From Candidatus Gastranaerophilales bacterium (GTDB lineage: Bacteria > Cyanobacteriota > Vampirovibrionia > Gastranaerophilales > Gastranaerophilaceae): 64,000 nt of DNA. The notes beneath the pieces were generated by a model that worked only from the letters and a program-made list of their open reading frames with translations, was not told where the DNA came from and ran no database searches. The stretch covers positions 1-64,000 of the forward strand of contig CALUPY010000006.1 of assembly GCA_944322755.1 (NCBI GenBank). The letters are read 5' to 3'. The translations under genes were made by a program, and so were the position numbers. Positions 4,662 through 10,661 of this stretch are shown one piece after another. Numbering within the stretch: the stretch's first letter is position 1; every line of letters starts with the position of its first letter.

Positions 4662-5498
4662 TTATGATGAAATCAATTCAAGAATTGACTGCAGAAGCTG
4701 TTTATTTGTTTGAATGATTTTGCTAGATACATCCAGCTGCATTTTCGCCTGCTGATAGTAAGCAATATTCGCTTTAAAATCGCAGTTAGACATTTCAAGT
4801 AGACCGCCTCTGACTTCACCTCTGCCCACGACGGGAGAGCCCGATTCTTCTGTTTCTATAAACTCACCCGGACGAATTTCATAGAGCCCTTCAGGGTTGT
4901 GGAAATTCATTATTGCCAGTTTGTATAAAGGTACCACTGTTTTCCCGCCGTCTGATTTTCCGTAGAGAATGCCTTCTTCTTTTATTTCAAATTCGTCATA
5001 TTTTCCGAGGTATTTACCGTTGTTCGGATCAATCCAGAGTTTTATGTTCGTAGTCGGAATGTTTACTGCGCCGCCTTTTATACCTGTTTCTGCGTAAATA
5101 TCAGCATCGACCGGTTTTGTACCTTGCATAATTTCGCCTTTGTCATTGAGAATGTAGCCTTGGACAGTCAATCCGCCAGGATTTCTGTATACACCTTCTT
5201 TGTCAAAAGTAAATTCGCCGAGTCTTGAATATACAATTTTTCCGTCATCTCTTCTTAATGTAAAGTAGCCTTCGCCCTCAAGAAAAACGTTTTCGTTAGA
5301 TGTACCGGGTGTTGATTTGCCTTGTCCTGTGTTTTTGTTCATTGTGTCAACAATAGCTGAATTCAGAAAAGTCTTGAACGTTGCCTGGGTTTCACGATAT
5401 CCCGGTGTGTATATGTTCATAAGGTTTTCTCCGACTGCGTCAATCCAATCAGAGGTTGCCATTTGAGTATTCAGCGCATTTACAAAAGAGTCGTTCAT
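4662..5498 (-). CDS. Flagellar hook/rod protein of the FlgE/FlgF/FlgG family
   Basis: 278 residues. The N-terminus (LNTQMATSDWIDAVGENLMNIYTPGY) is the rod-protein helix with the NxxNxxTPGY-like motif. The C-terminus (GGLLEMSNCDFKANIAYYQQAKMQLDVSSKIIQT) is the matching helix seen in FlgG and FlgE. Between them, EGEGYFTLRRDDGKIVYSRLGEFTFDKEG is the conserved FlgE/F/G core fold. The length is nearest FlgG/FlgF (about 250-260), and it lacks the long insert of a large hook protein, though its place after fliJ-fliK is typical of flgE. It acts outside the membrane as part of the rod or hook. Strong ribosome-binding site AAGGAGAG. Last gene of the cluster. Confidence 0.85.
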   Translation of the reverse strand: MNDSFVNALNTQMATSDWIDAVGENLMNIYTPGYRETQATFKTFLNSAIVDTMNKNTGQGKSTPGTSNENVFLEGEGYFTLRRDDGKIVYSRLGEFTFDKEGVYRNPGGLTVQGYILNDKGEIMQGTKPVDADIYAETGIKGGAVNIPTTNIKLWIDPNNGKYLGKYDEFEIKEEGILYGKSDGGKTVVPLYKLAIMNFHNPEGLYEIRPGEFIETEESGSPVVGRGEVRGGLLEMSNCDFKANIAYYQQAKMQLDVSSKIIQTNKQLLQSILELISS

Positions 5499-5501
5499 TT
5501 A

Positions 5502-6266
5502 TTACTCTCCTTCATTATTGTTTTGTTTTTTGTTTTGATTGTTATTTTGATTATGTCTGGATTGTCTGTACAAAATGTCGTTGTATCCGATATTCTGGTC
5601 GTCAAGTCTTTGTTTTAAAAATCTGATATTGTTGCGTAGATATTCTTCGACTGCTTTGTCTCCCGGAATAAATTCCGCAGAGACTTTGCCTTTTTTGTCT
5701 ACTTTAAGAATAACTGATACATTGTTATCAAAATCGATTCTGACAGGTTTGCCGTCCTCATAGGCTTTGTTGACAAGGTCAATTAAAATTTTTGAGGTTT
5801 GCTGTGTTTTGTATGTCGGTCCGACTTCGTCCGAAAATTTAATAAGGTTTGTTTTTCCGTCGTTATTTTGTATAGCAAACTGTTTGTTTTCGATGAGGTC
5901 GGAGAAAAACTTAGCATCCTCTTTGCTGATTTTAACAGTGTCATAGTTAAAAAGTGAGCTATATTTGTTTTTCAAAGAACTTCCGATATCGAATCCGAAT
6001 TTATTGACATAATTTTGATTAAGCTGCTCGTTATTGAGCTGATTATTCTGGTGTTGAATATTTTGCTGCTCAAGAGAAATTTTATCTGTATCTTTTGGCT
6101 CCAGAAGCTTTTTAAAATCACTGTCCTTGTCTTTTTTTGTTTTTTCTGTGCTTTCTGCCGAGTTTTTATTTGAGACAGATGATTGTTTTTCTGCAGCTGA
6201 AACCTGCGTATCATTCTGTGTCTGCTGGGTAGTTTCTATTGTCTGGGTATTGCTGCTGATATTCAT
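5502..6266 (-). CDS. FliK-like flagellar hook-length control protein
   Basis: 254 residues. The N-terminal half is Gln/Asn/Ser/Lys-rich and low in complexity, as in export-substrate hook-length proteins. The C-terminal half (about residues 165-235) matches the FliK hook-length domain pattern: PVRIDFDNNVSVILKVDKKG, then an amphipathic stretch ending LRNNIRFLKQRLDDQNIGY. The tail is again Asn/Gln-rich. It lies between fliJ and a hook/rod gene, the usual place for fliK. It is shorter than typical FliK (about 375-400). The start, with AAAGGAC ahead of it, lies 56 bases inside fliJ. The assignment rests on the C-terminal pattern and the context. Confidence 0.65.
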   Translation of the reverse strand: MNISSNTQTIETTQQTQNDTQVSAAEKQSSVSNKNSAESTEKTKKDKDSDFKKLLEPKDTDKISLEQQNIQHQNNQLNNEQLNQNYVNKFGFDIGSSLKNKYSSLFNYDTVKISKEDAKFFSDLIENKQFAIQNNDGKTNLIKFSDEVGPTYKTQQTSKILIDLVNKAYEDGKPVRIDFDNNVSVILKVDKKGKVSAEFIPGDKAVEEYLRNNIRFLKQRLDDQNIGYNDILYRQSRHNQNNNQNKKQNNNEGE

Positions 6267-6759
6267 TATTTTGTCCTTTTAATAAACGGAGTTCTTCGCG
6301 GGATAACATTGCTGCTTCTTCTTCTCTTGCAGCCTGGGTTTTTGCAAAGTATTTTTGTACGGCGACTTCTGAAAGTCTTTTGAGTTCTGCCTGCTTTTCT
6401 TCTTCTATATATGCATCACGGGCATGCTCTTTGTGTTTTTCAAGAACTTTTACTGCTTTTTCAAGTTCTCTTAGTTTTTCTTTTTCAACCTCAAGTGCTT
6501 CAAGAGCTTTTTGGCGATCCATTTCGAGGTTTTCACCTTTAACGTACAAATGTTTTAAATAATTGTCATAAGACTCATACATCATAAAGTCGGCCTGACG
6601 CATATTTATTCTTGTTTCTGCAATTTCTTTGTTGTTCCTTTCTATTAAAGCTTCTATTTTAAGAACTACTGCCTGGGCTTTTCGCACTTCCTGAAGCTGT
6701 TCTTCTTTTTTTCTGATTCTGAAATCCAGAATTTTTTGTAATCTGTAACGAAAAGGCAT
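6211..6759 (-). CDS. fliJ: Flagellar export chaperone FliJ
   Basis: 182 residues, almost entirely one charged coiled coil, beginning with the FliJ signature MPFRYRLQKILDFRIRKKEE. FliJ is the soluble stalk-like protein of the flagellar type III export gate that links the FliI ATPase to FlhA. The last ~25 residues are Gln/Asn/Pro-rich and lie in the overlap with the next gene, so they may be poorly conserved. No clear ribosome-binding site is seen. An extended -10 (TGGCATAAT on the minus strand, 6790-6798) lies ~30 bases upstream. It is first in the local fliJ-fliK-flg operon; fliI is not in the window. Confidence 0.85.
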   Translation of the reverse strand: MPFRYRLQKILDFRIRKKEEQLQEVRKAQAVVLKIEALIERNNKEIAETRINMRQADFMMYESYDNYLKHLYVKGENLEMDRQKALEALEVEKEKLRELEKAVKVLEKHKEHARDAYIEEEKQAELKRLSEVAVQKYFAKTQAAREEEAAMLSREELRLLKGQNNEYQQQYPDNRNYPADTE

Positions 6760-7153: not shown

Positions 7154-7198
7154 AAAAATCCGCTCTCACAGAAGAAATTGTTTTTTCTGCACCGGATT
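7154..7198 (-). terminator. Terminator after the cation-efflux fusion gene
   Basis: On the minus strand AATCCG and CGGATT form the base of a nested hairpin (TGCAGAA/TTCTGT higher up), followed directly by TTTTTG. The stem begins at the stop codon of the upstream gene. Confidence 0.6.
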
Positions 7199-9056
7199 AA
7201 TTTTGACAGTTTTCATCTTCCTCTGCCTGTTCTGAAGAATCAACGAATGGAGTCTCTTTATGCATTGTAATACGAGAAATTCTTCTTCCATCAATTTCGA
7301 GGACCTTATAGGTTATATTTTTGTCTTCAATAACATCGTTGACTTCAGGTTCACGACCTAAAAGTCCAAAAACGTAACCTCCGATAGTCTGAAAATCTTC
7401 ATTAGGAATATCAAGATCAAAACGCTCATTTATATCTTCTATATCCATTTTACAAGACACATTCAGTGTGTTGTCATCAATTTTTATGACCTCAGGTGAA
7501 TCTACCTTGTCAAACTCATCATATATTTCTCCGACAATTTCTTCAAGAATGTCTTCAATCGTTATTATTCCAGCAATGCCACCGTGTTCATCCACAACTG
7601 CTGCAATTTGATTTTTAGATGATGTAAAATCGCTTAAAAGATCGCTTATGAACTTATTTTCAGGTACAATAAGTATTTCTCTTGCTATTGATTCGATTGT
7701 AAAATTCTCGTCTACATTATTATTTTTTATAACTTTTAAAACGTCTTTTGCATTAACAACCCCGATTATATTGTCTACATTATCTTTGTAGATGGGGATT
7801 CTTGTGTGACCTGAATTAATCATCAAATCAGCGAGCGTGTTTATGTTTTCCTCGGCGTTCATCAGAAAAATTTCAGTCCTTGGCACCATAATCTCTTTAA
7901 CAACAGTATTTGCAAAACTAAAGAAATTAGAAAGCATTGTTGCTTCATGGGCGTCGATTGTACCTATGTTTTTACCCTCTGTTATTAGTCTTTCAAATTT
8001 TTCTTCCCAGTTGTCTTCTGCGTCATGCGCCTGAAGTTCGATAGTTATGTGATTTATATTCTTAATTCTTTTTCTAAGCTTTCTTTCAAGCATATCTGCT
8101 ATATCATCTGCATCCTTCATCTGGGTTTCAGGGTCAACTTCGATTGTCATATTTACAACAAGCCCAGAGGAACCCAAATCCATTGTTTTTAATTCAACAA
8201 CACTCGATATACCATGAATATTTTCTGCTATCCTTCTGATGGTTTCCTCCACACGCGGTTCTGCAGACTGAACGGTAAGTGAATTTACATTATGTTTCAA
8301 AAGATAAATCGCAAGTATCAACAGGATAAAACCGATTATTATGGAAGCAATACCATCCGGTACATGTACAAGTTCAGGAGGCATAAGAAACTTCGAAATA
8401 GTAAGTGCAATAAATGCAACAATTACACCGGTAAGAGCTGCTACATCCTCATACCATACGAATCTTGTGGTCGGACTTTTTATTTTTCTGATATATTTAA
8501 GCGATTGTATAAACTGAGAAAATATGTTTTTTTCGCTCAACTGCATTTCTGCAAGAACAGCCCGGGATGCGCTCGCTACTGCCCAGGATTCAAACAAAAT
8601 AGTAAAAATCAAAGCTATTGCCATATATGGATAGTTATTCAACAAATCGCTGTGGTCATGGCTGTTAAAAAACTTGTCAAAACCACTGTAAAAAGCGATA
8701 AAAGTACCACCCAGCATCAATATAGACGCAAACATTGCCCATACATTGGCTTCAAGTCCGTATCCGAAAGGATGTTCATTATCTGCCGGGCGTGAGCCTC
8801 TTTTTATACCAACCATAAGACAAATACTGTTAAATGAGTCTACTCCAGAGTGAATAGCCTCTGACAGCATTGCCGAACTGGATGAAAACAAGAAACAAAT
8901 GAATTTCACTGCAGCAATACCGATATTGGCAATAAATGCACGAATAACTGCACTTATTTTTGTTTTTTCATCCTCTTTTTCATCGTTACTCTTCTCTATT
9001 GAAACTGATATTTTTTTATCTTCTGTAATTTCTGTATTATGCGTGTCTGATGACAT
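7197..9056 (-). CDS. CDF cation efflux protein fused to CBS pair and CorC/HlyC domain
   Basis: 619 residues with an unusual domain order. Residues ~30-260 are a cation diffusion facilitator membrane domain: LSEAIHSGVDSFNSI in TM2, the HPFGYGLEANVWAMFAS loop, WYEDVAALTGVIVA in TM5, and VPDGIASIIIGFILL in TM6. The SEAIHS and EDxAA forms are those of the ZnT9-like branch rather than the DxxxD of YiiP. Residues ~265-345 are a CDF cytoplasmic domain. Residues ~380-525 are two CBS repeats beginning FANTVVKEIMVPRTEIF and ending DEHGGIAGIITIEDILEEIVGEI. The last ~85 residues are a CorC_HlyC domain (GGYVFGLLGREP). In known proteins this CBS-CorC module follows a CNNM/DUF21 membrane domain; here a CDF takes its place. 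Role inferred: divalent metal efflux gated by nucleotide or ion sensing. Confidence 0.9.
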   Translation of the reverse strand: MSSDTHNTEITEDKKISVSIEKSNDEKEDEKTKISAVIRAFIANIGIAAVKFICFLFSSSSAMLSEAIHSGVDSFNSICLMVGIKRGSRPADNEHPFGYGLEANVWAMFASILMLGGTFIAFYSGFDKFFNSHDHSDLLNNYPYMAIALIFTILFESWAVASASRAVLAEMQLSEKNIFSQFIQSLKYIRKIKSPTTRFVWYEDVAALTGVIVAFIALTISKFLMPPELVHVPDGIASIIIGFILLILAIYLLKHNVNSLTVQSAEPRVEETIRRIAENIHGISSVVELKTMDLGSSGLVVNMTIEVDPETQMKDADDIADMLERKLRKRIKNINHITIELQAHDAEDNWEEKFERLITEGKNIGTIDAHEATMLSNFFSFANTVVKEIMVPRTEIFLMNAEENINTLADLMINSGHTRIPIYKDNVDNIIGVVNAKDVLKVIKNNNVDENFTIESIAREILIVPENKFISDLLSDFTSSKNQIAAVVDEHGGIAGIITIEDILEEIVGEIYDEFDKVDSPEVIKIDDNTLNVSCKMDIEDINERFDLDIPNEDFQTIGGYVFGLLGREPEVNDVIEDKNITYKVLEIDGRRISRITMHKETPFVDSSEQAEEDENCQN

Positions 9057-9380: not shown

Positions 9381-9527
9381 ATTTATCTATAGTGTCTGAA
9401 GTATTTTATTTGTAACGAAATTAATATATAATAAACTCAACCTTTAACTTTTGTAAATTTTACGGCTTAAACTATAAAGTTTTTGATAAAAAAAGCCGTT
9501 AAAAAAAGAGTAAAATGGTATAGAGAT

Positions 9528-10661
9528 ATGAATGAGTTTACTTTAACAGAAGACGATACATTTGTAAAAAGCTTAGGCGAAATACTACAAATCGATCCGA
9601 AAATAGAAAAACATACAATTCTGCTCGTTGATGACGAGGTGAACAATCTCCAGCTTCTCCGACGTACACTGCGTCATGATTATAATATTATGACAGCCAG
9701 TAACGGCAAGGAAGCTTTAGAAATTGTTGAACATCACGGCAAAGAGATTTCACTTATCGTAAGTGATCAGAAAATGCCAGAGATGCAGGGAACCGAATTT
9801 TTAAAACAGGTATCGGATGAGTATCCTGATATAATAAAAATTTTGTTAACCGGACATCTTGATGTTGATGCCATTGTTGATTCAATAAATGATTGTCATT
9901 TATATCAGTATATTGTCAAACCTTTTGATCCTGAAGTATTGAAATTGACTATAGACGGCGGTATACAAAAATACAATCTTTTGAACAATAAAACTCTGAT
10001 TTTAAAAGATTTACGTGAACTTTTCTATAAAACTATAAAACTTATTGCTGCAGCATTAGACGCCAAAGATCCGTATACTCATGGTCATTCTATGCGTGTC
10101 ACAATGTATTCGATGATTCTCGCTAAAAAGTTAAATCTTGATGACACAATGCTCGAAGAAATTGAAACAGCAGGACTGTTGCATGACATTGGCAAAATAG
10201 GTATACCACAGAGTATTCTTTGTAAACCGGGAAAACTTACGGATGAAGAGTTTGAAGTTATGAAATCGCATCCGGAGCAGGGTGAAAAGATGCTTAAAGA
10301 TATCAAAAAGCTGACTTTGATTTCAAACTGGCTCAGAACCCATCATGAGAAATGGGATGGTTCCGGATATCCAAATGGTTTAAAAGGTGAAGAAATTCCT
10401 CTGTCCGGTCGTATTATTGCTCTTGCTGATACTTATGATGCAATGACTTCTGACAGACCTTATCGTAAAGCATTGAGTCATGAAATAGCAATTGATGAAA
10501 TTAAAAGATGTGCAGGTACGCAGTTCGACCCTGTTTTGGCTCAGCTCTTTGTTGATAATCAGGAAGAAATAAAAGCGGCTAAAGAAAATCCTGAAGAATA
10601 CTATGACAAATACAGTTATCTATTGAAGATAATCAAGCAAACATCCCAAAATCAGGAATAA
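9528..10661 (+). CDS. Response regulator with HD-GYP c-di-GMP phosphodiesterase domain
   Basis: About 377 residues from the chosen ATG; a TTG 45 bases earlier is in frame and possible. Residues ~25-145 are a receiver domain: acidic pocket DDE in ILLVDDE, phosphoacceptor Asp in LIVSDQKMPEM, LTGH, and KPF. The C-terminal part is an HD-GYP domain: GHSMRV, LLHDIGKIGIP, the SHPEQG segment, HHEKWDGSGYPNGLKGEEIP, and ALADTYDAMTSDRPYR, all canonical, so c-di-GMP hydrolysis is expected. This is the RpfG-like layout. No histidine kinase is adjacent; the hybrid CheA lies ~10 kb away. It probably tunes motility against surface life. Its 3' end overlaps the convergent prenyltransferase gene by ~40 bases. 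Confidence 0.92.
   Translation: MNEFTLTEDDTFVKSLGEILQIDPKIEKHTILLVDDEVNNLQLLRRTLRHDYNIMTASNGKEALEIVEHHGKEISLIVSDQKMPEMQGTEFLKQVSDEYPDIIKILLTGHLDVDAIVDSINDCHLYQYIVKPFDPEVLKLTIDGGIQKYNLLNNKTLILKDLRELFYKTIKLIAAALDAKDPYTHGHSMRVTMYSMILAKKLNLDDTMLEEIETAGLLHDIGKIGIPQSILCKPGKLTDEEFEVMKSHPEQGEKMLKDIKKLTLISNWLRTHHEKWDGSGYPNGLKGEEIPLSGRIIALADTYDAMTSDRPYRKALSHEIAIDEIKRCAGTQFDPVLAQLFVDNQEEIKAAKENPEEYYDKYSYLLKIIKQTSQNQE

Follow-up and report, generated by a model that had tools for sequence, protein, structure and literature searches.

A CDF metal transporter joined to a CBS–CorC module in Candidatus Gastranaerophilales and related non-photosynthetic Cyanobacteriota

Candidatus Gastranaerophilales are non-photosynthetic Cyanobacteriota, gut relatives of the cyanobacteria. 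The window analyzed here is a stretch of 64,000 nucleotides (positions 1 to 64,000 of contig CALUPY010000006.1) from a 2.19 Mb genome assembly of 43 contigs (GCA_944322755.1). It contains an uninterrupted open reading frame that begins with ATG at position 9056 and ends at position 7197, encoding 619 amino acids; the original prediction had reported a frame of this length and position but was silent on the strand, which is minus. The gene and its features are given below, with conservation counted across 46 representatives (fusion homologs clustered at 85% identity).

7197..9056 (stop codon included), minus strand: whole CDF–CBS–CorC fusion gene, 619 aa (open reading frame, Pfam, orthologs)
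8277..8945, minus strand: CDF six-helix membrane domain (Cation_efflux), residues 38-260 (Pfam; YiiP fold match)
8838..8852, minus strand: TM2 HxxxD, His69 and Asp73, half of metal site A (invariant, 46/46)
8772..8783, minus strand: Asp92 and His95 in the TM2-TM3 loop, YiiP site B region (Asp92 46/46, His95 45/46)
8445..8450, minus strand: TM5 acidic pair Glu203-Asp204, replacing HxxxD (Glu203 46/46, Asp204 45/46)
8037..8252, minus strand: CDF cytoplasmic ferredoxin-like domain (ZT_dimer), residues 269-340 (Pfam; YiiP/MamM fold)
7899..8024, minus strand: junction and two CNNM-type acidic-bundle helices, residues 345-386 (MtCorB alignment; fixed length)
7530..7901, minus strand: CBS pair, residues 386-509 (Pfam; MtCorB CBS fold)
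7800..7805, minus strand: Thr418-Arg419, equivalent to MtCorB Ser234/Arg235, ATP phosphate contacts (Thr/Ser 46/46, Arg/Lys 46/46; PMC8242095)
7551..7562, minus strand: Thr499 to Asp502, equivalent to MtCorB Thr313/Asp316, ATP ribose contacts (invariant, 46/46; PMC8242095)
7257..7484, minus strand: CorC_HlyC domain, residues 525-600 (Pfam; fold match)

The Pfam matches, all above gathering cut-offs, agree with the predicted order of CDF membrane domain, CDF cytoplasmic domain, CBS pair and CorC_HlyC domain without DUF21: Cation_efflux (PF01545) at residues 38-260 (E 8e-32), ZT_dimer (PF16916) at residues 269-340 (E 1e-10), two CBS repeats from residue 386 (E 1.5e-14), and CorC_HlyC at residues 525-600 (E 1.5e-20). 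CNNM/DUF21 (PF01595) had no Pfam match in this protein or in four distant members of the family, which have the same four domains; the stand-alone CNNM of the window's own genome (L002) matched PF01595 at 2e-54. Among NCBIfam models, the CDF superfamily (TIGR01297) covers the first half with 153 bits versus a cut-off of 82, and GldE/CorC-type models cover the second half below cut-off. The protein's fold and profile matches are those of a CDF to which a further module has been added. Lacking DUF21, it does not count as a CNNM; nor is it a soluble CorC (YbeX), which has no membrane domain, given the six-helix CDF domain. The same genome also encodes a normal CNNM with DUF21 (L002) and, separately, an ordinary CDF (L003).

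On the same strand, 437 bases downstream of the fusion gene, lie flagellar genes (4662-6759; FlgE/F/G-type and FliK-like), a set that includes a FliJ-like open reading frame without a Pfam match. The divergent neighbor (9483-10661) encodes a response regulator whose HD_5 domain is of the HD-GYP type, which is suggestive of c-di-GMP signaling. In one relative (L035, 6977-7334), the fusion is closely followed, on the opposite strand, by a gene for RNase P class A RNA. Regarding a metal riboswitch upstream of the gene, Rfam returned nothing in the window and no riboswitch was found in 13 related loci; a promoter and terminator scan gave no more than expected by chance.

The fusion was found at full length in 93 of the 382 genomes sampled across the class (our own count), spread over several orders of non-photosynthetic Cyanobacteriota. 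In this sample it is present in part of the window's own family, in families f3, f4, and f7 of the order, and in the distant families f9, f14, and f15 at 37-44% identity; a separate homolog search added families f2 and f5 of the order. Together with the four distant members checked by Pfam, this recovers the same domain order in several genomes without DUF21, as the original prediction had proposed to look for, and three congeners carry the full-length fusion at 94-97% identity, contrary to the absence from all close relatives that would have spoken against it. Conservation of this extent is far beyond chance. None of 203 sampled genomes from other classes of the phylum contained the fusion. 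Scanning of contigs with peptide patterns retrieved the fusion at 45 loci of Gastranaerophilales type, plus one unrelated CDF; these patterns are lineage-specific, so other phyla may hold the fusion too. Among plasmids, the sole near-full-length match consisted of two separate genes rather than a fusion. In four genomes of family f14 (G064, G075, G100, and G117) the fusion is the sole protein matching either half at E 0.001; thus, these genomes seem to be without a separate CNNM.

We considered whether a frameshift, a gene-prediction error, or an assembly join had merged a CDF gene with a CorC gene. A CDF gene beside a separate CNNM gene does exist elsewhere: on a plasmid of Azospirillum ramasamyi (L184, 3899-6580), a stand-alone ZnT9-like CDF gene and, directly after it in the same orientation, a separate CNNM gene form an unfused version of the combination seen here. 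However, the recurrence of the fusion across the class argues against an artefact, as does the junction itself. Positions 338 to 386 are 48 residues long in 46/46 representatives, including sequences at 37% identity, which excludes a join or frameshift between about residues 345 and 380, the stretch where the original prediction had foreseen one. Compared with the nearest congener, the whole gene has dN 0.020 and dS 1.25 (dN/dS ~0.02), and the low ratio continues through the junction (residues 338-390: dN 0.008, dS 0.79); the fusion gene is under purifying selection. We regard an artefactual origin as scarcely credible.

Flagellar genes also adjoin the fusion in distant families. At the f9/f15 loci L114, L116-L120, L124, L125, and L129, the fusion lies on the same strand just downstream of flhA and a gene for a small membrane protein (100-165 aa), with gaps of about 70-220 bases; L115 is arranged likewise with one extra open reading frame between. 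The flhA assignments at the f9/f15 loci agree with TIGR01398 matches at the same places, and flhB (named by eye) precedes flhA where seen. Across the class-level sample, the distributions of the fusion and of a true flagellar FlhA (scoring over cut-off) largely coincide: families f9, f14, and f15 have both and families f8 and f10-f13 have neither. Within family f1, both are mostly present in genera g1, g6, g20, g22, and g33; the fusion occurs without FlhA in g53 and g13, and FlhA without the fusion in g9, g16, g17, g25, g26, g30, g31, g52, and g56. Shared ancestry alone could explain this co-occurrence.

The predicted model of residues 33-344 matches the fold of YiiP (8f6k, Z 19.0). The modeled cytoplasmic domain superposes on that of YiiP (3j1z) with an rmsd of 1.3 over 81 residues and on the MamM cytoplasmic domain with an rmsd of 1.6, and the YiiP and MamM matches to this domain span 1.3-1.9 angstrom. 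The fusion shares six transmembrane helices, the ferredoxin-like domain, the TM2 HxxxD, and Asp92/His95 with YiiP/FieF and with stand-alone ZnT9-like CDFs (L158-L163, L190-L195), and differs from all of these in its additional 270-residue CBS-CorC module. An HxxxD motif in TM2 is typical of Zn CDFs. Judged against the canonical Zn-CDF pattern (ZitB, CzcD, and most ZnT), the fusion has the TM2 HxxxD but not the TM5 HxxxD: YiiP His153 and Asp157 align to W201 and V205, and Glu203-Asp204 sits between them. This acidic pair is present in the stand-alone ZnT9-like CDFs, and in the alignment it is common to the nearest stand-alone relatives; the CDF half clusters with stand-alone bacterial CDFs that share the pair, apart from the other CDFs of the order. 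Since TM5 lacks the canonical HxxxD, the metal and the activity are unsure.

The original prediction had called the membrane domain ZnT9-like. The nearest bacterial relatives agree with this label, as does the C. elegans mitochondrial zinc exporter SLC-30A9, in which the residues that matter include H198, D202, and D221, spaced as are His69, Asp73, and Asp92 of the fusion, a comparison made on residue spacing (PMC8901913). We treat "ZnT9-like" as a lead. By kinship the metal is probably Zn2+, with Mn2+, Co2+, Fe2+, or Cd2+ also possible. The fusion does not keep the cytoplasmic zinc ligands of YiiP: in the profile alignment, YiiP H232, H248, and H261 correspond to V287, T304, and A316, and by eye, past the end of that alignment, H283 and D285 correspond to E340 and Q342. 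Nor are YiiP-type ligands for zinc conserved in the cytoplasmic domain across the alignment columns of the fusion representatives.

The second half resembles the cytoplasmic part of CNNM/CorB proteins (MtCorB, TpCorC, PaeA, and L002) in its acidic-bundle helices, CBS Mg-ATP contacts, and CorC_HlyC domain, all in the same order and with the same spacing. Fusion residue 351 aligns with MtCorB residue 167, where the acidic helical bundle (166-199; PMC8242095) begins. Thus, a complete CDF takes the place of the CNNM membrane and juxtamembrane part (MtCorB residues up to ~165). The model of the CBS pair matches the ATP-bound CBS pair of MtCorB (7msu) with Z 15.4 and an rmsd of 1.6 over 113 residues. 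The MtCorB contacts to Mg-ATP include S234, R235, T313, and D316 (PMC8242095), and the acidic helical linker and most of the ATP-contact residues are kept in the fusion. The exceptions are the ribose contact Thr207, which is Val or Ile, and the stacking residue Phe233, which is mostly His; E. coli CorC likewise has Ile and His at these positions (4hg0 alignment). The model of the CorC domain superposes on 2r2z with an rmsd of 1.4 angstrom over 82 residues; CorC_HlyC has no known biochemical function (PMC12421838).

The two halves were aligned and treed separately, with 29 fusions in each tree. In the tree of the CBS-CorC half, the fusions form one clade against 28 CNNM/CorC proteins (SH-aLRT 99), and in the tree of the CDF half the same 29 form one clade (SH-aLRT 97). 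The neighbors of this CDF clade are 13 stand-alone CDFs of cyanobacteria and other phyla, and it is clearly separated from the order's own stand-alone CDFs (99* split). Both trees have two main branches, one with the sequences of the order and the other with those of families f9, f14, and f15. Because each half is a single clade in its own tree, the account that fits best, and the simplest, would be a single ancient fusion in a shared ancestor that was later lost from many genera and from entire families.

The premise that CBS-CorC normally follows CNNM/DUF21 holds for CNNM but is too narrow: the module also occurs after TerC (MgpA/YoaE and YegH) and alone, as membrane-free CorC (PMC12421838). 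MgpA and YegH thus resemble the fusion in having CBS-CorC on a non-CNNM membrane domain, although theirs is TerC and not CDF, and CorC (YbeX) resembles it in the CorC domain, the His in place of Phe233, and the non-Thr residue in place of Thr207, but is soluble and without a membrane domain. In CvrA, a CorC_HlyC domain likewise stands at the C-terminus of a proton antiporter, in that case a Na/H exchanger with RCK instead of a CBS pair (PMC12421838). The portable regulatory cassette is therefore not a new idea, and plug-and-play CBS domains on transporters have already been reviewed (PMC10710835). No description of a CDF-CBS or CDF-CorC fusion, and hence of CDF as a membrane partner of CBS-CorC, was found in the open-access literature.

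In known CDF transporters, regulation comes from metal that binds to the transporter's own cytoplasmic domain. Members of both parent families form homodimers in which the cytoplasmic domains control the membrane part, the signal being zinc binding in YiiP and Mg-ATP in CorB (PMC10710835). We propose that a single ancient fusion supplied a CDF metal/proton antiporter, beyond its own cytoplasmic domain, with the cytoplasmic part of a CNNM/CorC protein (acidic-bundle helices, CBS pair, and CorC domain). The product would be a homodimer that exports divalent metal from the cytoplasm; its CBS pair would bind Mg-ATP or another adenine nucleotide, and binding would alter the dimer below the CDF cytoplasmic domains, or their packing, and so change the rate of transport. 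The kept ATP-contact residues and acidic helical linker make nucleotide-gated efflux plausible. The original prediction had expected structure prediction to dock CBS onto the CDF cytoplasmic domain. Both AF2 models leave the linker and the domain arrangement loose and do not place the CBS pair relative to the CDF (full length: pLDDT 72.5, pTM 0.43, linker under 55; residues 262-604: pTM 0.42), so the coupling is something that we infer. Taken as a whole, a protein of single ancient origin that acts as a homodimeric, proton-coupled exporter of divalent metal, with Zn2+ the likeliest substrate, and is regulated through CBS-bound Mg-ATP or another adenine nucleotide, is in our judgment about an even prospect. 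More tentatively, and with chances that we would place short of even, the CDF exporter may be gated directly by adenine nucleotide or Mg2+ through CBS-CorC, and antiporters of the CDF type may be the natural targets of soluble CorC.

Other readings of the same features have to be set against this proposal. CBS-CorC might sense cytoplasmic Mg2+ or an excess of cation, with ATP as a constant co-ligand and the CDF as a relief valve that is perhaps not zinc-specific. The Salmonella CorC domain or CBS-CorC pair has been postulated to be a cation sensor, and CorC, MgpA, and PaeA relieve excess-cation stress (PMC12421838); moreover, a CDF cytoplasmic domain without YiiP-type zinc ligands leaves room for another sensor. 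On the other hand, site A retains the TM2 motif of Zn CDFs, and the equally spaced worm SLC-30A9 bound Zn2+, not Mg2+ (PMC8901913), so that we find this reading doubtful. It is less likely still that CBS-CorC is mainly a scaffold that holds the dimer together, or a surface for docking a partner, and does not gate transport. CBS pairs do dimerize, the missing zinc ligands would leave dimerization to something other than the CDF cytoplasmic domain, and the small membrane protein encoded with flhB-flhA ahead of the f9/f15 genes is a possible partner; yet ATP-contact residues that are invariant down to 37% identity would be needless for scaffolding alone, and no partner gene is conserved throughout the whole group.

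The departure of TM5 from HxxxD also raises the prospect that the CDF part no longer transports and that the protein serves as a sensor or regulator in the membrane, much as mammalian ZnT6 has lost site A and transport (PMC10932157). We consider this very unlikely, given that His69, Asp73, Asp92, Glu203, and Asp204 are invariant or nearly so, that the nearest stand-alone relatives have the same acidic pair in TM5, and that the zinc exporter SLC-30A9 of C. elegans needs the TM2 pair and an Asp 19 residues on (PMC8901913).

The CDF-CBS-CorC fusion has been kept in one bacterial class since before its orders split, and it adds one more family, CDF, to the membrane partners of this cassette (CNNM and TerC, and a Na/H exchanger that has CorC alone). 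Soluble CorC is presumed to work in trans on some transporter; the fusion is useful because it links this cassette covalently to a transporter. With the cassette and a metal/proton antiporter naturally joined in one chain, the fusion offers a direct, purifiable system in which to learn what CBS-CorC senses and how the transporter is moved. The known zinc ligands are gone from the CDF cytoplasmic domain and a nucleotide-sensor cassette is attached instead, an arrangement which suggests that metal export may be tuned by the Mg-ATP level of the cell. If the gating is true, transition-metal efflux in these bacteria would be tied to their energy or magnesium state.
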